A stretch of 64,000 bases of DNA, taken from Candidatus Poribacteria bacterium. GTDB lineage: Bacteria > Poribacteria > WGA-4E > PCPOR2b. The DNA lies in contig JAPPKS010000032.1 of the NCBI GenBank assembly GCA_028819845.1, forward strand, positions 186,001 to 250,000. The letters run 5' to 3'. This document shows, in pieces, positions 53,977 through 64,000 of the stretch. Position numbers and translations under genes: made by a program. Position 1 is the first letter of the stretch, and every line of letters begins with the position of its first letter. The notes beneath the pieces are model-generated. The model was not told the origin of the DNA and did no database searches. It saw nothing but the letters and a program-made list of their open reading frames with translations.

Positions 53977-54224
53977 AGTGTCAATCTGAGAAGAGGAGGA
54001 TTATGTCGGATGATGCGCGATGGCGACATCTAGCGGCAAAAGAATTAGGGAATCAAATTTCAATTTTAGCACGGCGTCAGTTGGTTCCGCAATCACTAAC
54101 GGCAGCATGGTCCCCCCTCCCGTTTTGAAATGAAAGTGCATCAACAAGAAAACGAAATCAAAAAAGAGGTAGAAAATGTCGTAAAACCGTGTCTTTATTA
54201 GGTAAAAGAGAGGAACAACCCACA

Positions 54225-55664
54225 GTGACCATTGAGGACGATACAATTTCTCGCGCACAATCCGGGGACGAAAGTGCATTCGTCGGTCTGATGCGGGTGC
54301 ATTATGGCTTTGTCTACGCGATTGTTCTCGGAATCGTGAAAAATCCGCAAGACGCCGAAGAGGTCGTGCAAGATTCCTTTCTTAACGCTTATCACGGCCT
54401 GCCAGACCTCGAGGATGGGAAAAAGTTTAAATACTGGCTGGCAAAAATTGCGCGAAATCGTGCGCTCAACTGGCAGCGAGAACAGCGGATTGATACCGTG
54501 TCCATAAATGAGGTGGGCGAGCACACACTATCGCCCTCGGATGCACCGGACGACGAGTTGATTCACCGTGAACAGCGGGAACTCATTCGCCGTGCGATTG
54601 AGACGCTCTCGCCAAGCGAGCGGGAGGTTGCCCGATCATACTATATTGAAGGTGCAAGCTACGATGAATTAACAAAGGCGCACGGGCTGTCGTATAAAGC
54701 GGTTTCGGTTCGGCTTTCACGCGCCAAACAGAAACTCTCCAAGCGGTTAGGTCAGTTGCTTACCGGTGCGTTTGTTTTCCCTGCTTCAACACTCAAGAAA
54801 ATTTCCTCAGGAGGGCTTACGATAATGAAAGTTGGAACAGTACCCAAAATCACCGCGGGGGTAGTAGCCGTCGTCATACTAGCCTACATCGGGACGCGCC
54901 AGTTCATTTGGCCGAAAGTGGATACGTCTCCATCGGTCGAGGTTGTAACTTCAACTGAGTCCATAAACTCAGATGCCCAAACAGACGCCATACCTAAAGG
55001 TGCGGTCACCGCGCCCCCGCGTGAAGATATACCGCAAATCTCCGCGGAGGAGATGCAGCAGATTGAGGACTTCTTCGCTCAACTTGATGAGGCGGACGCG
55101 CAATCGGAAACGGATACGTCACAACAAACAACGGACACAGCATTGGATAAGAACGCCGAAGCGGGACATGCCACCGACTCATGGGCGACGCCAGAAGACA
55201 CAACTCAATCCGCTGAAGATGTAATGAACGCTTATCTGAAGGCGTTTCGAAATTTTGACGTTACCGGGATTCGTTCATTTTTGACAGATGCCGCCAAAGA
55301 AGAGTTTGAAAGTAGTTTGCCTATGCTCATGGGAGGGTTGCCTCACGATATTGGGGATATTTTTGAAAATAGCGGGATATCAGAAGACAAGGCAGATGAG
55401 ACACTTCAGATGGTACAAGGAATGATGCAACCAATCCTTAAACAGATGTTTAGTCAAGCAGAGATTGTGAGCAGTGAGTTTGTCGGCGAGGAATTCCACT
55501 TTCGATTAAGGGTCCAGTTGCCGGGAATGTCAGAGATGCTAGGAAGGTTTGGGCAGGACATTTCAGAGATTCCTGAAACATTTCAGGCGCCTGAGATGCC
55601 GGAAATGCCCGACTTTCTTCATAAGATGCGAAAAGAGAACGGAGTATGGCAGATTTATCAGTAA
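54225..55664 (+). CDS. ECF sigma factor fused to a membrane helix and secreted NTF2-like domain
   Basis: A 479-residue fusion. Residues 1-170 are a complete ECF sigma-70: region 2 (YAIVLGIVKNPQDAEEVVQDSFLNAY, in two short motifs) and region 4 (LSPSEREVARSYYIEGASY, then LSYKAVSVRLSRAKQKL). A membrane helix follows (about 208-230), then an acidic linker and an NTF2-like domain (about 330-479: AEDVMNAYLKAFRNFD, VSSEFVGEEFHFRLR, ENGVWQIYQ). GTG 54225 is chosen over 54189 because it aligns with the start of the paralogue at 62939. An in-frame ATG 54825 with AGGAGGG upstream could make the membrane part alone. The tail may act as a built-in sensor; this is inference. Confidence 0.88.
   Translation: MTIEDDTISRAQSGDESAFVGLMRVHYGFVYAIVLGIVKNPQDAEEVVQDSFLNAYHGLPDLEDGKKFKYWLAKIARNRALNWQREQRIDTVSINEVGEHTLSPSDAPDDELIHREQRELIRRAIETLSPSEREVARSYYIEGASYDELTKAHGLSYKAVSVRLSRAKQKLSKRLGQLLTGAFVFPASTLKKISSGGLTIMKVGTVPKITAGVVAVVILAYIGTRQFIWPKVDTSPSVEVVTSTESINSDAQTDAIPKGAVTAPPREDIPQISAEEMQQIEDFFAQLDEADAQSETDTSQQTTDTALDKNAEAGHATDSWATPEDTTQSAEDVMNAYLKAFRNFDVTGIRSFLTDAAKEEFESSLPMLMGGLPHDIGDIFENSGISEDKADETLQMVQGMMQPILKQMFSQAEIVSSEFVGEEFHFRLRVQLPGMSEMLGRFGQDISEIPETFQAPEMPEMPDFLHKMRKENGVWQIYQ
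54809..54827 (+). promoter_or_regulatory. Internal ribosome binding site and ATG inside the sigma fusion gene
   Basis: AGGAGGG (54809-54815) lies nine bases before in-frame ATG 54825, exactly where the sigma part ends and the membrane part begins. The equivalent spot in the paralogue at 62939 has AGGGGG and ATG 63539. Confidence 0.55.
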
Positions 55665-55714
55665 TCGGAACGTGACTATGTTCACGCTTGCTTCCTGTCT
55701 TATAAGATGTCACG

Positions 55715-55746
55715 AGGCGATTGGTTAAACCCATTCGCCTTTTTTC
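55715..55746 (+). terminator. Terminator of the sigma fusion gene; start of 3'-flank repeat, copy 1
   Basis: AGGCGA-TTGGTT and AACC-CATTCGCCT pair and are followed by TTTTTTC. The 3' flank to about 55798 recurs after the other module copies at 58386-58451, 60168-60272 and 62774-62862. Confidence 0.8.
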
Positions 55747-55882
55747 TTTTCATACTGCTAAATATCTGCTATCCTGAAAATCCTTTAATGGGATAATCCC
55801 AAAAATCGAACGTAAACGCACGCGGTCTGAACCGCCTGCTGGCAAAGAAAATCGAACCAATCATAGTAGGGAGAATAGAATA

Positions 55883-56680
55883 ATGAAAGTACCGAACCTC
55901 ATATGTACAATTTGCCTCGCTTTGATACTCGGATCCGATGCCGCGGCTACGAGTGCGAAGGAGCAGCTTGAAAATTCGCCGCGGCACGGCGAATGGGTGA
56001 AAATCCCGTCGACTAAAGGGCGGAGCGTGAATGCCTTTATTGTTTTTCCTGAGATTAAAGAGCAGGCGACTTCGGTTATTGTCATTCACGAGATTTTCGG
56101 ACTGACCGATTGGGTAAGGCTCGTCGGCGACAGACTCGCTGAAGCAGGTTTTGTCGCCATTTGCCCCGACATGCTTTCAGGTATGGAAGGCGGCGGCACC
56201 GAGAGTTTCGAGTCCGGCGACGATGTTCGCAGAGCCATCCGGAATCTCGATTCCGATCAAATTACGGCCGATTTGAAAGCGGCGGCGAAATACCTTCGAG
56301 ACCTGCCCTCAACAACGGACAAGGTTGCTGTGAGTGGGTTCTGCTGGGGCGGCGGACAGACATTTCGGTTCGCGGCGAACGACGACACAATTGCCGGCGC
56401 GTTTGTCTTCTATGGTCCTCCGCCAGCCGGCGAAGCTATCCGTGATATTAAATGCCCTGTCTACGGATTTTATGGCGAGAACGACAATCGGATTAATGCC
56501 ACAATCGAACCTACCAAAGCCGCCGCAAACGCAGCCGGGGTGAGTTATGAGCCGGTAACCTATTCCGGTGTTGGCCACGGCTTCCTCAGACACGGGATGG
56601 CTGACGGTGCAAACAATACCGAAGAGGGAGCGGTGGAAAAAGCCTGGAAGCGATTTGTGGATTTGCTCAAAGCACTTTAG
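55883..56680 (+). CDS. Dienelactone hydrolase family protein, exported
   Basis: A 265-residue alpha/beta hydrolase. A signal peptide (about residues 1-21) is followed by the domain. The Cys nucleophile lies in SGFCWGGGQTF, the family form of the nucleophile elbow; His is in GVGHGFLRHG and Asp probably in YGENDNRI. The family opens dienelactones and related esters. It sits between two copies of the NTF2-like module and is followed without gap by a PhyH gene. Confidence 0.9.
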   Translation: MKVPNLICTICLALILGSDAAATSAKEQLENSPRHGEWVKIPSTKGRSVNAFIVFPEIKEQATSVIVIHEIFGLTDWVRLVGDRLAEAGFVAICPDMLSGMEGGGTESFESGDDVRRAIRNLDSDQITADLKAAAKYLRDLPSTTDKVAVSGFCWGGGQTFRFAANDDTIAGAFVFYGPPPAGEAIRDIKCPVYGFYGENDNRINATIEPTKAAANAAGVSYEPVTYSGVGHGFLRHGMADGANNTEEGAVEKAWKRFVDLLKAL

Positions 56681-56739
56681 TGGAACGCGATCACTGGGCG
56701 AGGGAGGCGATTTTTTTCAGCGCCAATGAGACTTCATTG

Positions 56740-57477
56740 ATGTTAAGCGACGAAGCTCAAAAACAGTTTCATGACGAAGGATACCTCGTATTAGAGCGAC
56801 TGATATCCGGCGATAAACTAGACCACTATTTAGCGGTTTTCGATGAATTGGTCAAGCGAAGCAAACATGTCCCTGTCGATACGCCGCACTGGTCATTCGA
56901 GATTGACGAAGAGGGGCAGCAGATACCGGGCTTTTTGCACAAAATTCAAGGTGTCTGCGTCCTTGAGCCGCGCATCGTTGCCCTGGCTAAAGAATCGGAA
57001 ATCCTCGACCGCGTTGCGCCGCTAATCGGACCGGACATTGACGTGTTCGGGACAAAGTTCTTCCCAAAACTCCCCGGCGGCGGAACATCTGTCTTCTGGC
57101 ATCAGGATAACTTCTACTTCGGGACGAACACCGGGCAGGTTGTAAGCTGCGCGATTTACCTTCAAGACGCGGACCGGGAAAACGGCTGCCTGCGGGTGGT
57201 TCCCAAAAGCCATAAATCGAAAGTTATCGCAAAACATCACAGAAACCCCAACACGTATGGCAGTTGGGTTCAAATTGATGAATCGGACGCGATTGATGTA
57301 GAAGTGCCGAGGGGTTCGGTTGTGATATTCTCAGCAAACCTGCTGCACGGCAGCCACGATAATCGCAGCAATCGAACGCGCTACTGCGCCGAATGGCATT
57401 ACACACCCGCTGACCTGCTGCTGGAGCGTTTCCCGCGCGATAAAATTAAAGACCGGCACAATGTTCGAGAAATCTAG
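56740..57477 (+). CDS. Phytanoyl-CoA dioxygenase (PhyH) family protein
   Basis: A 245-residue Fe(II)/2-oxoglutarate oxygenase. FHDEGYLVLERLI is the usual N-terminal segment; iron ligands are His and Asp in FWHQDNFYF and His in LLHGSHDN; the Arg for 2-oxoglutarate follows in NRTRYC. ATG 56740 is chosen at the domain edge; the frame is open back to GTG 56680, which overlaps the hydrolase stop, so coupling from there is possible. Substrate unknown. Paralogue at 47.1 kb. Confidence 0.9.
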   Translation: MLSDEAQKQFHDEGYLVLERLISGDKLDHYLAVFDELVKRSKHVPVDTPHWSFEIDEEGQQIPGFLHKIQGVCVLEPRIVALAKESEILDRVAPLIGPDIDVFGTKFFPKLPGGGTSVFWHQDNFYFGTNTGQVVSCAIYLQDADRENGCLRVVPKSHKSKVIAKHHRNPNTYGSWVQIDESDAIDVEVPRGSVVIFSANLLHGSHDNRSNRTRYCAEWHYTPADLLLERFPRDKIKDRHNVREI

Positions 57478-57530
57478 AAACGGTTCTTGTTACCAATAAC
57501 CACACGCGAAAACGCTATTCAGGAGAAATT

Positions 57531-58340
57531 ATGAAATTTGGAACGCTTCACAAAACCGTAACCGGTGCAGCAGCCCTCATTTTAGTCGGCACGATTATAA
57601 CACTCTGGTTCATTTCGGCTGAAGAGGATTCGGATCGAGAGGTTGAGATTGTAATATCATCGCCAACGGAGTTTTCAGAGTTGGCCGCTCATACGAGTAC
57701 GGCGCGAAAAGCCGAAATCGCCGTTCCTTTACCGGAAGACACGCCGCGAATCTCTGCCGCAGAGCTGCAGCAAATTGAGGACTTTTTCGCCCAATTCGAA
57801 GACATGGATGTGCAGTCAGCGTTGGATGTACCGCAATTCTCACTAGACGGAGAGGTGATGCAGGATACGGATGAACACTATTCTGACGACTCGAGTGCTG
57901 ATCTAGAGCATCCCGCTGAACAAGTGATGAATAAGTTCGTGGATGCGTTTAGAAATTTCGATTTGGAGACGGTTATCCCATTCACTACTGAAAGTGCCAG
58001 GAAACCGATTGAAAACATATTGAGTGTTCTCGGCGGGGTAATGCCGGAAAAAATGCTGAATGACCACCTGAGTTCGATCGACGATGGTATGTCGCAAACT
58101 GAAATAGATGAGGCAGTTGAGTCGGCTTACAAAGCAATGGATTCAATTCGATCTCCGGAAAACCTAGCGAAATGGCGTCGAATTTTCCGCCAGACGCAAA
58201 TCGTGAGCAGCGAACATGTCGGCGATGAATTCCAATTTCGATTGACGGTGCCATTGCCCGATAGGTACAACAATTTTGGACTAGTTGTTAGCATGCGAAA
58301 AATAGACGGTGAGTGGCGCATCTATCGGATGGAAAGTTAA
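57531..58340 (+). CDS. Membrane-anchored NTF2-like module without sigma domain
   Basis: A 269-residue paralogue of the C-terminal part of the sigma fusion. It starts MKFGTLHKTVTGAAALIL, which aligns with the internal ATG of the sigma genes (MKVGTVPKI...). The membrane helix is at about 10-28, then an acidic linker sharing PRISAAELQQIEDFFAQF, and an NTF2-like domain (about 130-269) ending GEWRIYRMES. VSSEHVGDEFQFRL is the family motif. CAGGAG precedes the ATG. It shows that the membrane half exists as an independent gene in this genome. Confidence 0.82.
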   Translation: MKFGTLHKTVTGAAALILVGTIITLWFISAEEDSDREVEIVISSPTEFSELAAHTSTARKAEIAVPLPEDTPRISAAELQQIEDFFAQFEDMDVQSALDVPQFSLDGEVMQDTDEHYSDDSSADLEHPAEQVMNKFVDAFRNFDLETVIPFTTESARKPIENILSVLGGVMPEKMLNDHLSSIDDGMSQTEIDEAVESAYKAMDSIRSPENLAKWRRIFRQTQIVSSEHVGDEFQFRLTVPLPDRYNNFGLVVSMRKIDGEWRIYRMES

Positions 58341-58385
58341 ACAACCAACGTCTCTCACCCCAGGCCCGCGCTAGGCATTTATTTT

Positions 58386-58451
58386 AACCCATTCGCCTGT
58401 TTTATTTTCAACCGGCAAATAATCAGTTATCCTGAAAATCCTTTACTCTTA
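58386..58451 (+). repeat. 3'-flank repeat of the NTF2-like module, copy 2
   Basis: AACCCATTCGCCT, then TATCCTGAAAATCCTTTA, matching copies 1, 3 and 4. The left arm of the terminator stem is decayed here, so it may no longer stop transcription. Confidence 0.75.
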
Positions 58452-58570
58452 GGACTTACGCAGTTCGGCTTGTAGTAGCGTAATTTATTGCGCGTCCGGC
58501 AGGTCGTTCACTTCCTTGACTTGACAAATTTTTTTTGTTAAATCGGGCGTTAAATTGCCCTACTACGAAC
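58452..58570. repeat. Element end GGACTTACGCA plus imperfect inverted repeat
   Basis: GGACTTACGCA (58452-58462) equals the ends of the 29690-29835 element. Directly after, GTAGTAGCGTAATTTA and TAAATTGCCCTACTAC form an imperfect inverted pair around 58472 and 58552. Probably a decayed mobile fragment. Confidence 0.5.
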
Positions 58571-58571
58571 C

Positions 58572-58872
58572 TTGGGACGCATTGAGATGCGTCAGCTGGC
58601 TGAACAGCAGATGCGGAGTATTGAACAAGACATACGAACTGGGCCTTTTGAACGGAAGATGCGAAGTGTGTGGATGAAATCTATCAGTCAGCTGGAGGTT
58701 ATGCGTAGCGAATATGCCGGTTATGAATTCCACTTTGTATTGGGAGGTCCAAAGCCGGATATGTCGGAGATTACAGGGATAGAAATTTCAGACGTTATTG
58801 TGGCAATACACTGGTTAAGATGCGGAAGAGAATGGCGTGTGGCGCGTTTATGAGAGTGAGGCATTGGACTAG
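58572..58872 (+). pseudogene. Decayed NTF2-like module copy
   Basis: The frame reads LEVMRSEYAGYEFHFVLGG, aligning with VSSEHVGDEFxFxL of the intact copies. Near 58835 the frame is lost; in the shifted frame NGVWRVYESEALD restores the conserved C-terminal end and a stop at 58870-58872. The N-terminal two-thirds of the module are missing. No start or ribosome binding site is convincing. The stretch from 58873 to 59110 holds only the ribosome binding site of the next gene. Confidence 0.7.
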
Positions 58873-59110
58873 CGCGAATCTGTATCCGATGGAACGCATC
58901 CGAAGGTGAATAATCGGGTTGCGGCTGTATTCTTGCTTCCTCAAGGCAACTTAATTGTTCTGAGTGGCGGTTGAAAATTTAATGTAATTTATGAAATTAC
59001 ATGTAAGTATGTTCATACTCAAGTTTTAAATGACTTCCCGCGATAAGCAACCTGTTGCTAATGCCTTACAAGGTTTGTATACCAAACGCTACTACCGGAA
59101 AGGAGAGAAA

Positions 59111-59728
59111 ATGCGATTTGTAATTGTAATCATTGTCTGTATATCGTTGTTAATTACCGGGTGTTCATTGGGTGTAACCGAGAAAAAAGATGTGAAGATA
59201 CCGACAGAAAGCACGTCTCAATCTGCTGAAGATGTGATGGACGTTTATGTAGAGGCATACAGAAATGCGGATTTTGAGGCGTTGATTCCATGCGTGACGG
59301 GTAATGCCAGAGAAGCGATTGAACGTAACATGCATTTCCTAAACGGAGGGTTTCAAGAAGACTACATGAAATTAGTAGAAAATTTTATCCCAGAAGGTAT
59401 GTCGGACGAAATGGCGAACGGCGCAATTCAGACATTGGACGAGATAGTAAACGGACCCATGATGCAGGAAATGCTGCGATCAATGTACAATCAAGTAGAG
59501 GTTGTGAGTAGTCAGCATGTCGGCGACGAATTCCACTTCCAATTCAGAAGGTTTTTACCGAAGGTTGAGATGCCGAATCTATCGGACATGCCGGAGATTC
59601 CAGGGATGGAATTGCCGGAGATTTCAGAATGGCCAGAGATGCCGGAAAGCTATGATACGACTGTTAAGATACGCAAAGAGGACGGCGAATGGATTATTTA
59701 TGATATTGAGTATTTGCATTTACGATAA
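59111..59728 (+). CDS. Lipoprotein form of the NTF2-like module
   Basis: A 205-residue protein. MRFVIVIIVCISLLITGC is a lipoprotein signal (lipobox LITGC), replacing the membrane helix of its paralogues. After a short linker the NTF2-like domain starts SAEDVMDVYVEAYRNADFEA and contains VSSQHVGDEFHFQF. Before the end there is a Met/Pro/Glu-rich run (MPEIPGMELPEISEWPEMPE) and then KIRKEDGEWIIYDIE. ATG 59111 follows AAAGGAGAG; the longer frame from 59030 would spoil the signal. Same domain, third type of anchor. Confidence 0.83.
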   Translation: MRFVIVIIVCISLLITGCSLGVTEKKDVKIPTESTSQSAEDVMDVYVEAYRNADFEALIPCVTGNAREAIERNMHFLNGGFQEDYMKLVENFIPEGMSDEMANGAIQTLDEIVNGPMMQEMLRSMYNQVEVVSSQHVGDEFHFQFRRFLPKVEMPNLSDMPEIPGMELPEISEWPEMPESYDTTVKIRKEDGEWIIYDIEYLHLR

Positions 59729-59746
59729 AAACTCGACCTTAAACTA

Positions 59747-60128
59747 GGTTCTGTTGACATTTAATCGAAACCTGACAATCAAGAGCGGGGCACAGACACA
59801 TGACCCTTCGTAGGGGTTGGGTCCCCCAACCCTTTGTTCACAGTCTGACACGCTTTCGGACTGCTTTAGGTTGTTTGACCAAATTCGGTAATACTCTAGA
59901 AAATAGTGCAACATGCCGGCTTAATTGAGCCAAGACCGTTGTGGAACACTCTTGTTGTTTTGTAAAGGTATGATTCTTGATGAACAACCCACTCAATCTG
60001 TATGGTTGGGAGTTCCCTGCCCGCGTTGGCCAATGGGCGAGGTGACCTGATAAACACTATCGCCCTCGCTATTCACTCGGTTGATCCCCTACGATTACAG
60101 GCAGCTTCACATAAATGTCAACACGCCC
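59747..60128. mobile_element. MITE-like element, copy B
   Basis: A 382-bp relative of copy A (4944-5257) with the same ends: GGTTCTGTTGACATTT left and GGGCGTGTTGACATTT read inward from the right. It is preceded by TA; the right TA has become CA. It carries an extra internal block of about 100 bp (roughly 59888-59992) absent from A, and one unit of the 30-bp repeat (60057-60089). The insertion lies between the lipoprotein module and the M16 gene. Confidence 0.75.
60057..60089 (+). repeat. 30-bp interspersed repeat unit inside MITE copy B
   Basis: CTATCGCCCTCGCTATTCAC followed by TCGGTTGATCCCC; it is the reverse complement of 3121-3151 at the fmt stop. Confidence 0.7.
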
Positions 60129-60167
60129 CAGTCCGCAACCGAATTTCCCATGACTTTACGCGTCAAT

Positions 60168-60272
60168 TGGCCGACCTATTCGCCTGTTTTAACTTCAACC
60201 CGTGAAAAATCTGGTGTCCGGAGAATCCTTTACTCCCGTAAATCCTGATTCAGATGTCTACTCTCTCAATTA
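60168..60272 (+). repeat. 3'-flank repeat of the NTF2-like module, copy 3, with sigma-gene leader
   Basis: CTATTCGCCTGTTTTAACTTC, then GGAGAATCCTTTACTCCCGT and AAATCCTGATTCAGA. The last part also occurs just before the sigma gene at 62939, which suggests a sigma gene once followed here. Confidence 0.65.
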
Positions 60273-60364
60273 CACCAAGCTGATTAACTTAATTAATGAT
60301 GAGGATGCCGCGCTAGTGATGTTTTTTAAGTGTATCAGAATCTCTCTACCCGTAGCAAAGGGTT

Positions 60365-60478
60365 AAATACTTGGGAGCTATTTACTAAAGAGATTGCGCA
60401 GTGTTTGAGCTTTCCGTCAACACCGCCAACCAGCGGTTGATGCGAACCAGAACCAAACTCAAGGAGGAGTCAATTGCA
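60365..60478 (+). pseudogene. Remnant of ECF sigma region 4
   Basis: In one frame TKEIAQCLS and in the next frame ELSVNTANQRLMRTRTKLKEE can be read; joined, they give a typical sigma region 4 helix-turn-helix. The upstream sigma domain is missing or unreadable (60273-60364 contains no clear match). The second frame runs on into the M16 gene. Confidence 0.6.
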
Positions 60479-62623
60479 ATGATAGACACCGCATTTACAG
60501 CGAAAAAGTTACAGTCAGGTTTTACCTTCCGAATCGTCGAAGCTATTAAATCAACCAAAGTGCAATCAATTTCAACGAAGCCGCGGTTTCCGTTCATCGG
60601 TTCAGCGGCGGTCGGGATTGTGCTTACCTTTATGCTTTTCAGTCAATTGCTCCGCCCTGCCGCTGCACACGGCGGTTTGACCAGTTCGCTGCACCCCAGC
60701 GATATCCAGATGACAATAATTGGAGGAATTCCAGTTGAACTTCTTGCTGATGCGTCCAAACCGCCGACGGTTGCCGGCGGGCGTGCAACCGAGGTTGAGG
60801 GCGATTCGCCCGATCAACCGAGTTCGATGAACGCCGCCGCCGATACAATTTCGAATTCTGAGATACCAGCGCCGTACAAACTGGACAACGGGCTGACAGT
60901 CATTCTACGTCCTGTTCCCACGTCAAGCCAAGTGGCGGTTGTAGTGCTGTTCAATTTGGGCGGCGGCCACGACCCGCTCGGAAAGTCCGGCAGAGCACAC
61001 CTGCTTGAACACCTATATTGCACCGCTGCAGCCGGTGACACCCCAGCGCGCGACGCCATGAAGCTTCAAGAACGCTATGTTGCAGGCTGGAACGCGCAAA
61101 CAGGGTTCGACTACACTATTTTTGCTGGTGTCGTCGAAGCAGGGCAATTCGCGGTGGAGTTGAAGGATGCGGCTGCGCGCATGAACGATTTGCAAATCAC
61201 ATTAGCTGATCTAATCCGCGAGGTGCCTCGCGTGATGACAGAATTGAGTAACATGTACAGCGGCGTGCCGTCGCTGGTCGGCATAAACCGTGTTCGCGCT
61301 CAGGTGCACCCCATCCCCGAAGGCGGACGGGTCGGCGGTGCGCCCGAGCACATTGAGACAATGACTCTCGGTGAACTGCAGCAGTTTTGGCAGGATTACT
61401 ACAAGCCAAACAACGCCGTTCTTGTCATCGCAGGCGGGTTTGACGTTGCCGAAGCGCGGCATTTGATTGACCAAAACTTCAGCCTGATTCCGTCCGGTAT
61501 GCCTCCGCCCGAAAAGCCGCCCAAGTCTGCAGCGAAGACCGGGGCGATTCGCTTCATCACCGCGGAACCTGCGAACGACGTTACGACCGGCGTCGCAGCG
61601 ATTGGATATGCTGCACCCCGACCCGGGAGCAAGGAATACGCGCCGTTCCTGATAGTTGTCTCACGTTTGTGGGCAGGCGCGCAGGCTGCATTTCAGCCGG
61701 GGAAAACACCGCCTGTGTACTTTACGCCATTGGACGATGGCACCACGCTTGTGCTCCAGACCGACGTGCAAACTGAGGCGGACATTGAGTCAGCGCTCGA
61801 TCAACTCGACCAACGCCTAAACACGGCATTGACGCCGAAACTCACGCTGGCAGACAAACAGCTAACGATAAACTCAATGGCAATGATGGGCACAGTTGAT
61901 GTACCGGATGCCATGTGGGCGCAGAATCCGTACGGATTAGCGTTCAGCATTGGCCGCCGGTATCAACTGCAACTAAATGGCGCTGATTTGCGCGATACCA
62001 TCCAGCGCGTCGCCGACGCAGATTTGCAGCACTTGGCGGCGAGTGTATTCTCGCCGGAAAAACGCGACACCGTCATCGTTGGAGGCACTTCTTTGCTCGA
62101 TTCTGAAGAATCGGATGCACGATTAAGCGTTGATAGCACAGGCGTATCCGCCGAGGAGGTGATGAACGCCTTTGTAGAGGCATACAAAAATCTTGACCTT
62201 GAGACGATGCTCCCGTATTTGTCAGGCTCCGCCCGAGAAGTGATAAAAAGTACCATGGACGTGTTTAGCGGTGAGTTTCCAGAAGAGCTTGTAGATTCCA
62301 TGCCGGACGGTACGGTTCAGATGATTGAGGATTCTATGGACAGTCCCATGGTGCAAGAAGGCTTGCGATCAATATACAGTCAGTTAACTGTTGTAAGCAG
62401 CGAACATGTCGGCGATGAATTTTATTTCAAATTGAGAATACCGATGCCGAAAATAGAGATGCCAGATATATCGGAGATGCCCGAGCTACAAGGGATGGAA
62501 TTACCGGAAGGGATGGACCTTTCGGATATGCCCGACCACCTGGAAATTCCGGATATGACTCACAAGATGCGAAAAGAGGATGGCGCATGGCGGATTTATG
62601 ACATTGATTATGAGTATGAATAA
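60479..62623 (+). CDS. M16-type peptidase-like protein with membrane helix and NTF2-like module
   Basis: A 714-residue fusion. One membrane helix (about 44-62) is followed by an M16 domain with the inverted zinc motif HLLEH (about 174-178) and a downstream Glu in the ELSNMYSG region. A second, inactive M16-like half reaches about residue 540 (ATGVAAIGYAAPRPG-type strand). The NTF2-like module (about 558-714) has SAEEVMNAFVEAYKNLDLE, VSSEHVGDEFYFKLR and EDGAWRIYDID. ATG 60479 is chosen because AAGGAGGAG lies nine bases upstream; the open frame reaches GTG 60401 through a sigma region 4 remnant. The site is intact, so peptidase activity is plausible. Confidence 0.85.
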   Translation: MIDTAFTAKKLQSGFTFRIVEAIKSTKVQSISTKPRFPFIGSAAVGIVLTFMLFSQLLRPAAAHGGLTSSLHPSDIQMTIIGGIPVELLADASKPPTVAGGRATEVEGDSPDQPSSMNAAADTISNSEIPAPYKLDNGLTVILRPVPTSSQVAVVVLFNLGGGHDPLGKSGRAHLLEHLYCTAAAGDTPARDAMKLQERYVAGWNAQTGFDYTIFAGVVEAGQFAVELKDAAARMNDLQITLADLIREVPRVMTELSNMYSGVPSLVGINRVRAQVHPIPEGGRVGGAPEHIETMTLGELQQFWQDYYKPNNAVLVIAGGFDVAEARHLIDQNFSLIPSGMPPPEKPPKSAAKTGAIRFITAEPANDVTTGVAAIGYAAPRPGSKEYAPFLIVVSRLWAGAQAAFQPGKTPPVYFTPLDDGTTLVLQTDVQTEADIESALDQLDQRLNTALTPKLTLADKQLTINSMAMMGTVDVPDAMWAQNPYGLAFSIGRRYQLQLNGADLRDTIQRVADADLQHLAASVFSPEKRDTVIVGGTSLLDSEESDARLSVDSTGVSAEEVMNAFVEAYKNLDLETMLPYLSGSAREVIKSTMDVFSGEFPEELVDSMPDGTVQMIEDSMDSPMVQEGLRSIYSQLTVVSSEHVGDEFYFKLRIPMPKIEMPDISEMPELQGMELPEGMDLSDMPDHLEIPDMTHKMRKEDGAWRIYDIDYEYE

Positions 62624-62625
62624 AG

Positions 62626-62733
62626 GGGCATGCAGCGTACATTGCTAGTCTTGCTTTCAGCCCGGATGGTTCCACGCTGGGGAGCGGGAGTTACGACGGA
62701 ACCGTGCTTTTATGGGATGTCTCCCGTTAGCCC
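62626..62733 (+). pseudogene. Single orphan WD40 blade
   Basis: One frame, starting right after the M16 stop, reads IASLAFSPDGSTLGSGSYDG and TVLLWDVSR, a textbook WD40 repeat, then hits TAG. There is no start and no other blade. It is the last blade of a lost beta-propeller gene. Confidence 0.75.
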
Positions 62734-62759
62734 GCCACCGAATTCCTTAACTCTTCATC

Positions 62760-62862
62760 AGGCGAATGGTTCAACCCATTCGCCTTTTTTATTTTCATCC
62801 CGCGGCTAATCTGTTATCCTGAGAATCCTTTAATCCGGCAAATCCTGATTCAGACAGTTACC
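62760..62862 (+). terminator. Terminator and 3'-flank repeat, copy 4
   Basis: AGGCGAATGGTT and AACCCATTCGCCT pair exactly and are followed by TTTTTT (62760-62790). The repeat continues with TATCCTGAGAATCCTTTAAT and AAATCCTGATTCAGA, which leads to the next sigma gene. Confidence 0.85.
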
Positions 62863-62938
62863 TCCCAAAAAAAGTGCTAGAAAAAATCGCAGAACGTCGT
62901 TATGTTTGATTAAGGGGTATAAGGAGGAATGAGGAACA

Positions 62939-64000
62939 GTGGCTAACACTAAAAATCTCATTTGCCGTGTCCAAACGGGAGACGAAGGTGCATTCACTGA
63001 ATTGATGCGGGCACATTATGCCTTCGTTTATGCGGTTATAATTGGAATCGTGAACAATCCCAACGACGCCGAAGAGATTGTGCAAGACACCTTTCTCAAT
63101 GCTTACCGCGGATTGGCGCAGTATGAAGATCGAAGAAAGTTCAAAAACTGGCTGGCGGAAATTGCTCGTAACAGTGTGCGAGATTGGTTGCGAAAACAGC
63201 GTATAAATACTGTTTCCATTGATGAGGTGAGCGAACACACACTACTAACCCCGGACGCACCCGACGAACAGTTGATACGCCGCGAACAGAGGGAACTAAT
63301 TCGACGTGCCATGGAATCGCTGCCGCAAAAAGATAGGGACATCGCTCGCTCGTACTATCTTGATGGCGCAAGCTACGACGAGCTGATTCGGACGCATGGG
63401 TTGTCATACAATGCGATTTCGTTTCGACTTTCGCGTGCCAAACAGAAACTCGCCAAGCGGTTGAGCCATCTGCTCACTGGTGTATTCGTTTCTCCGATTA
63501 CCTCACTCAAACAAATCTACTCAGGGGGACTTACGATAATGAAGGTTGGAACAGTTTCTAAGTTCACTGTCGGTGCCACAGCTATTATTGGAATCGCTGT
63601 CATCGGGATTCACCAGTTTATTTCGTCGAAGGAGGGCTCTCCTTCCGTCGAGCTTGTTACATCAACATCAAGCGCACCTACGCACTCGGTTACCCGAAGA
63701 GATGCTGCTCGTAAAACGGTTAAGGCATCCCGCCGTGCACGTGCAGTAGTACCCCAAATTTCCACCGAGGAAATGGAAGGGGTCGAGAGATTTTTTGCTC
63801 AACTTGAAGAAGACCTGCATGATTCAGAGAAAACCGTACAAGCTTCCCCGTCTGAAATGGACAACGAGATTGTTTTGGACACTTCCGAGACGGAAGTCGT
63901 TTCAGAATCACAGGAAGCGCGTTTTGTCGAGTCGCCACGCTCCGAAACTGAAGCGCAGATTCAAACGCTAAAAACGGAAATCACTAGTCTTTTATTCGAT
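62939..64000 (+). CDS. ECF sigma factor with membrane tail, second copy (runs off the window)
   Basis: At least 354 codons, open to the end of the window. Region 2 (IIGIVNNPNDAEEIVQDTFL) and region 4 (LPQKDRDIARSYYLDGASY, LSYNAISFRLSRAKQKLAKR in two parts) closely match the fusion at 54.2 kb. After the in-frame ATG 63539 (AGGGGG upstream) come a membrane helix (about 207-225) and an acidic linker with PQISTEEMEGVERFFAQLEE. The NTF2-like end must lie beyond 64000 if it is present. Start GTG 62939 follows AAGGAGG (62921-62927) and GAGGAA (62931-62936). Confidence 0.85.
   Translation, partial: MANTKNLICRVQTGDEGAFTELMRAHYAFVYAVIIGIVNNPNDAEEIVQDTFLNAYRGLAQYEDRRKFKNWLAEIARNSVRDWLRKQRINTVSIDEVSEHTLLTPDAPDEQLIRREQRELIRRAMESLPQKDRDIARSYYLDGASYDELIRTHGLSYNAISFRLSRAKQKLAKRLSHLLTGVFVSPITSLKQIYSGGLTIMKVGTVSKFTVGATAIIGIAVIGIHQFISSKEGSPSVELVTSTSSAPTHSVTRRDAARKTVKASRRARAVVPQISTEEMEGVERFFAQLEEDLHDSEKTVQASPSEMDNEIVLDTSETEVVSESQEARFVESPRSETEAQIQTLKTEITSLLFD

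Follow-up and report, generated by a model that had tools for sequence, protein, structure and literature searches.

The gene of an ECF sigma factor that is fused in frame to a membrane module in a poribacterial genome carries, at the seam between the two parts, a Shine-Dalgarno sequence followed by an in-frame ATG. Judging from its conservation, we consider this seam to be probably a retained and working translation start, which would make the fusion a case of dual translation.

The sigma-TM fusion and its seam

Poribacteria are uncultured bacteria that are known mostly from marine sponges. The window, by which we mean the whole stretch of 64,000 nucleotides that was analysed, belongs to a draft assembly of 35 contigs and 4.6 Mb and contains the fusion together with several related copies (Table 1). 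The longest ORF at this locus (54189..55664) opens at GTG 54189, and the real sigma start is likely GTG 54225, as it lines up with the GTG at which relatives begin. In Pfam, the sigma part matches Sigma70_r2 (E 1.4e-14) and r4_2 (E 6.6e-9) and no other sigma region, and in NCBIfam it exceeds the cut-off of TIGR02937. With regions 2 and 4 present and regions 1.1 and 3 absent, it is an ECF (group IV) sigma-70 factor.

Only about 20 residues link region 4 to the internal ATG. The C-terminal part opens with MKVGTVPKITAGVVAVVILAYIG: two lysines precede a single TM helix, which an acidic linker connects to the NTF2-like domain; by eye, the hydrophobic stretch directly follows MKVGTVPK in nearly all family members. 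The AlphaFold model of the C-terminal domain reached a pLDDT of 77, and its Foldseek matches, which were weak (best E 1.1e-2), were to NTF2-like proteins including SnoaL2. A SnoaL match was not found in Pfam, and the TM helix stands between the sigma part and the domain. An anti-sigma or zinc-finger domain was found neither in Pfam nor among the NCBIfam matches listed.

At 10 nt, the spacing from AGGAGG to the ATG is somewhat long yet still usable, and a duplex as strong as that at the seam occurred in just 9% of synonymous shuffles. The expected anti-Shine-Dalgarno sequence GGATCACCTCC was found in four related genomes; in the host draft genome, two search patterns found no 16S 3' end with a matching anti-Shine-Dalgarno sequence. 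The first-pass annotation had pointed to this ribosome-binding site and ATG at the sigma/membrane junction, to an AGGGGG and ATG in a second fusion and to a sigma-free paralogue that begins with the same residues, and direct reading of the DNA confirmed all of these elements at the positions given in Table 1.

Table 1. Features of the sigma-TM fusion and of related copies in the window.
Feature	Position	Strand	Basis or remark
ECF sigma fused in frame to TM and NTF2-like module	54225..55664	+	Pfam; start by alignment
Internal Shine-Dalgarno AGGAGGG	54809..54815	+	direct reading; duplex -10.8 kcal/mol
Internal in-frame ATG, candidate start of free module	54825..54827	+	invariant in relatives
Candidate second product: 8 residues in the cytoplasm, a single TM helix, a linker and an NTF2-like domain outside the membrane	54825..55664	+	sequence, predicted fold
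Sigma-free paralogue, begins MKFGTLHK at equivalent ATG (57531)	57531..58340	+	AGGAG at 57521-57525; 39% identity to module
Stand-alone lipoprotein-like copy of NTF2-like domain	59030..59728	+	45% identity over fusion residues 334-490
Second fusion class, M16-peptidase-like and NTF2-like, sigma part decayed	60401..62623	+	comparison with G003 homologue; Pfam
Seam of decayed fusion: AAGGAGG (60461-60467) and in-frame ATG (60479-60481)	60461..60481	+	direct reading
Second sigma-TM fusion, same family, leaves window at its end	62939..64000	+	ORF, Pfam
Seam of second sigma-TM fusion: AGGGGG (63523-63528) and in-frame ATG (63539-63541)	63523..63541	+	duplex -9.4 kcal/mol

Conservation of the seam in the family and in other ECF fusions

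An alignment of the window gene, the second window copy and relatives found in 6 further poribacterial genomes, often in tandem arrays, provided 33 usable junctions. The seam Met is encoded by ATG in all alignable relatives (33/33), whereas its neighbours vary, with A, V, I, T or G at -1 and V, I, A or T at +2. It is also kept where the cargo is a different one, namely PurC (PF01259, E about 1e-73) in loci L093 and L094 and WD40 in L128; in L222, a related WD40 fusion from another genome, the seam Met codon is replaced by GTG, which is itself a start codon. Most relatives carry GGAGG, with GGA as the codon for 24 of the 26 glycines at -5, and the Shine-Dalgarno sequence is weakened in about eight members (AAT GGT, AGT GGT, GGA AGT, AGA GGT or GAA GGT). 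In a broad scan, homologues were found in Poribacteria MAGs only, apart from one plain Stenotrophomonas sigma factor.

Constraint at the DNA level was assessed by comparing the synonymous differences per codon column over all sequence pairs with the expectation from pair divergence and amino acid. The lowest synonymous divergence fell on columns -209 to -196, i.e. the true sigma start and its ribosome-binding site, which serve as a built-in positive control. The second-lowest fell on -6 to +4 at the internal ATG (0.70-0.72 of expected), a modest dip of about 2.7 SD under the mean in a family whose members derive from recent duplication. When the divergence cut was set highest, windows of 6 and 8 codons had their overall minimum in the codons that follow the internal ATG, and for the GGA codon at -5 synonymous change was down to 0.28 of expected. 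The mean Shine-Dalgarno pairing in the family was -9.3 kcal/mol compared to -7.2 kcal/mol in synonymous shuffles, and local structure at the seam was slightly weaker than in the shuffles (z +0.5).

The arrangement extends beyond this family. We sorted 105 ECF fusions of Poribacteria into 20 subclasses, took one representative of each, and counted a seam site as present where an ATG lay between -6 and +42 codons from the end of region 4 and had a duplex of -8 kcal/mol or stronger. Such a site was present in 13.1 of 20 subclasses compared to 3.4 expected from synonymous shuffles (median P 2.2e-8); as many subclasses share a sigma type (KEE...M), a P of about 2e-8 overstates their independence, and from our point of view the independent seams are nearer 8/12 and the true P is weaker. 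With a stricter threshold of -10 kcal/mol, 7.9 subclasses were observed and 1.6 expected (P 7e-6). Other 48-codon windows of the same ORFs showed no excess, with 20 of 909 (2.2%) passing compared to 26.9 expected. Among the poribacterial ECF fusions, the classes with ankyrin and DUF4159 cargo lack the seam site; it accompanies carboxypeptidase-regulatory-like repeats with thioredoxin-like domains, lectin, beta-propellers and M16-like cargo. Seam sequences in these other classes include AAAGGAGGGTTTCTC-ATG, AAAGGAGGAATTGACG-ATG, AAAAGGAGGAAAATTCAG-ATG, GAAAGGAGGAAGATT-ATG and TTAGGAGGTATAGAAGCC-GTG, and a distantly related fusion class has GGAGGT and a GTG at this position. The residues at the seam differ between unrelated classes (KEE, KGGFLM, KRRKIQM, RRKIM), while the DNA signal is the same. 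Loss of conservation of the Shine-Dalgarno sequence and ATG among homologues had been named in the first-pass annotation as an outcome that would speak against the idea; what we found instead is an invariant Met, constrained synonymous sites and unrelated fusions that are alike in this respect.

Two further observations concern individual loci. In L097 and L223 (in the latter at about 2070-2100), which represent a distantly related sigma-TM class, the seam reads GGAGGTATAGA..CC-GTG, with GTG replacing ATG. In L071, L072, L151, L152, L157 and L174, the residues that follow the seam ATG resemble ordinary protein starts (MADEVKIEARL, MSDKAKDIRRNF).

Origin, alternative explanations and known systems

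Sigma genes that are not fused also occur in these genomes, and the start of the next gene often lies -14 to +20 nt from their stop codon and has a Shine-Dalgarno-like site (at -1 in L190, L205 and L189, at -11 in L035 and L202). A start that overlaps or adjoins the sigma stop in such pairs would, upon loss of this stop, give the fused arrangement that is observed. As such, the most probable precursor is an ancestral pair in which a membrane-anchored NTF2-like protein was encoded downstream of an ECF sigma gene, with the ribosome-binding site of the second gene within or beside the 3' end of the first; loss of the sigma stop codon would have created a single ORF, and the ribosome-binding site and start would have been retained because they were still functional. 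The full-length product would then be a sigma factor tethered to the membrane via its C-terminal module, and the same mRNA would supply an additional free module from the seam start. Free and tethered modules may pair via their TM helices or NTF2-like domains, which could shift how many sigma units stay bound to the membrane or become accessible to a signal or protease.

Three other explanations have to be weighed. If the ribosome-binding site and ATG were left over from the gene fusion and no longer used, both the overlapping or adjacent gene pairs in the same genomes and the weakened Shine-Dalgarno sequences of several members would be accounted for. We regard this as unlikely, since a dead scar should drift, yet all 33 relatives keep the Met and synonymous change is reduced there, and since the remainder of these ORFs has no excess of internal start sites. 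It is rather improbable, too, that the residues GGLTxMKxGT themselves matter, for example by forming a hinge or a protease site ahead of the TM helix, and that the DNA signals simply follow from them. The residues SGG, L, T, M, K and G around the seam are conserved and GG codons mimic a Shine-Dalgarno sequence, so that 44% of synonymous shuffles pass -8 kcal/mol; within the family, however, this duplex strength is reached in 74% and synonymous change is lowered, the Met stays where PurC or WD40 comes next, and unrelated classes have other residues with the same DNA signal.

One could further speculate that the purine-rich Shine-Dalgarno sequence provides microhomology for the swapping of cargo and is conserved by gene conversion instead of translation. 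A single seam with several cargoes (TM-NTF2, PurC, WD40) would fit such a recombination site, as would the unequal dS of the two class-A sigma-PurC genes (0.24 in the sigma part, 0.69 in the PurC part). It would not predict an invariant ATG with constrained codons +2 and +3, as at a true start, and the class-A PurC breakpoints lie about 8 or more codons past the ATG and not at the ATG itself, for which reasons we consider it very unlikely.

Hence, the conservation of the seam suggests a start that is still in use, and the idea of a scar probably describes how it originated. The first-pass annotation had proposed either two products from one gene or the scar of a fused sigma/anti-sigma pair; the comparisons support both halves, which are compatible, except that the partner is not recognisable as an anti-sigma factor. 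Its further suggestion that the free module acts as a dominant regulator was a guess that finds no backing here: with only MKVGTVPK, i.e. about 8 residues, in the cytoplasm and with no anti-sigma domain, the free module is unlikely to bind the sigma factor directly. If it regulates at all, pairing with the tethered form or competition for the signal or protease would be more plausible. The comparisons show the site, its conservation, its enrichment among poribacterial ECF fusions and the persistence of a downstream protein after decay of the sigma part; what we infer is initiation by ribosomes at the seam, an origin by stop loss and any regulatory role of the free module. More tentatively, ECF fusions to diverse cargo throughout Poribacteria may keep the ribosome-binding site of the cargo as collapsed operons that yield sigma-tagged and free cargo, with the seam ribosome-binding site and ATG permitting cargo exchange, including that for the metabolic enzyme PurC.

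Internal in-frame translation is known from the cas8 and cas10 genes of types I-B, I-C and I-D, which produce Cas11 in this way (PMC11899642). In both cases, a start codon and a Shine-Dalgarno-like site, which is conserved in the sigma fusions, lie inside a larger ORF, and in the CRISPR case the C-terminal part becomes a separate subunit that cooperates with the long protein (PMC11899642). The Cas11 start is experimentally demonstrated, whereas the evidence for the seam start, which is located in a sigma factor gene, is comparative. Among ECF sigma factors, ECF48, ECF52, ECF53 and IutY are described as fusions to a C-terminal transmembrane anti-sigma factor, for which an ancient translational fusion was proposed and, in IutY, proteolytic release was shown (PMC8999054). 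They resemble the poribacterial fusion in being tethered to the membrane by their own C-terminal part; unlike in them, no zinc-finger anti-sigma domain was found in the poribacterial fusion and its extracytoplasmic part appears NTF2-like, and the passages of the review consulted describe no internal start for ECF48, ECF52, ECF53 or IutY. ECF41 and ECF56 carry a C-terminal SnoaL-like domain directly after the sigma part (PMC8999054), and the poribacterial fusion may share this NTF2/SnoaL-type fold at the C-terminus, but its domain stands behind a TM helix, outside the membrane, and has no SnoaL match in Pfam. Neither the ECF fusions of Poribacteria nor an internal start within a fused sigma gene turned up in the open-access literature. 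A long C-terminal extension on an ECF sigma factor is usually taken to make it a one-protein sensor. With a working seam start, many poribacterial ECF fusions would be two-product genes, ideas on tethering and release would change, and a simple route would exist from a sigma/partner operon to a one-gene switch that retains the separate partner.

Sigma-PurC fusions and decayed copies

An ECF sigma factor is fused in frame to a complete PurC (SAICAR synthetase) in L094 (2529-4091, G003:C6), L093 (2648-4153, G005:C58) and L144 (G004:C24). These fusions span two sigma classes; a single ancestral sigma-PurC fusion behind all cases was rejected, as the sigma class in genome G004 differs from that in G003 and G005. 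In the pair from G003 and G005, purifying selection acts on both parts (dN/dS 0.16 and 0.055). The PurC of a product starting at the seam ATG would have an N-terminus close to the usual length. In the assembly of G003, which is 88% complete, no purC was found besides the fused one; that this organism relies on the fusion for purine synthesis is unsupported, as the normal purC neighbourhood is missing from the assembly as well.

Among the decayed copies, the M16-peptidase-like ORF of the window has an intact homologue in G003, a 908-aa sigma fusion. In the window ORF, most of region 2 is missing from the sigma part, which also contains a stop and a frame change; 700 open codons follow, and the AAGGAGG-ATG seam is intact. 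The NTF2-like C-terminal domain of this ORF belongs to the same family as that of the sigma-TM fusions. In L096 (G004), a frame change lies within region 4 and the module is intact. The opposite decay, with sigma intact and the module broken, is present as well (L084 at 4220; L128 at 6704 and 10092). Since both kinds of broken copy exist, the module can outlive the sigma part, and the notion that it always does so was rejected. Tandem arrays of sigma-TM-NTF2 fusions (54189-64000 of the window; L087, L090, L128) comprise sigma-only, module-only, frame-shifted and cargo-swapped copies, which suggests rapid expansion and decay.
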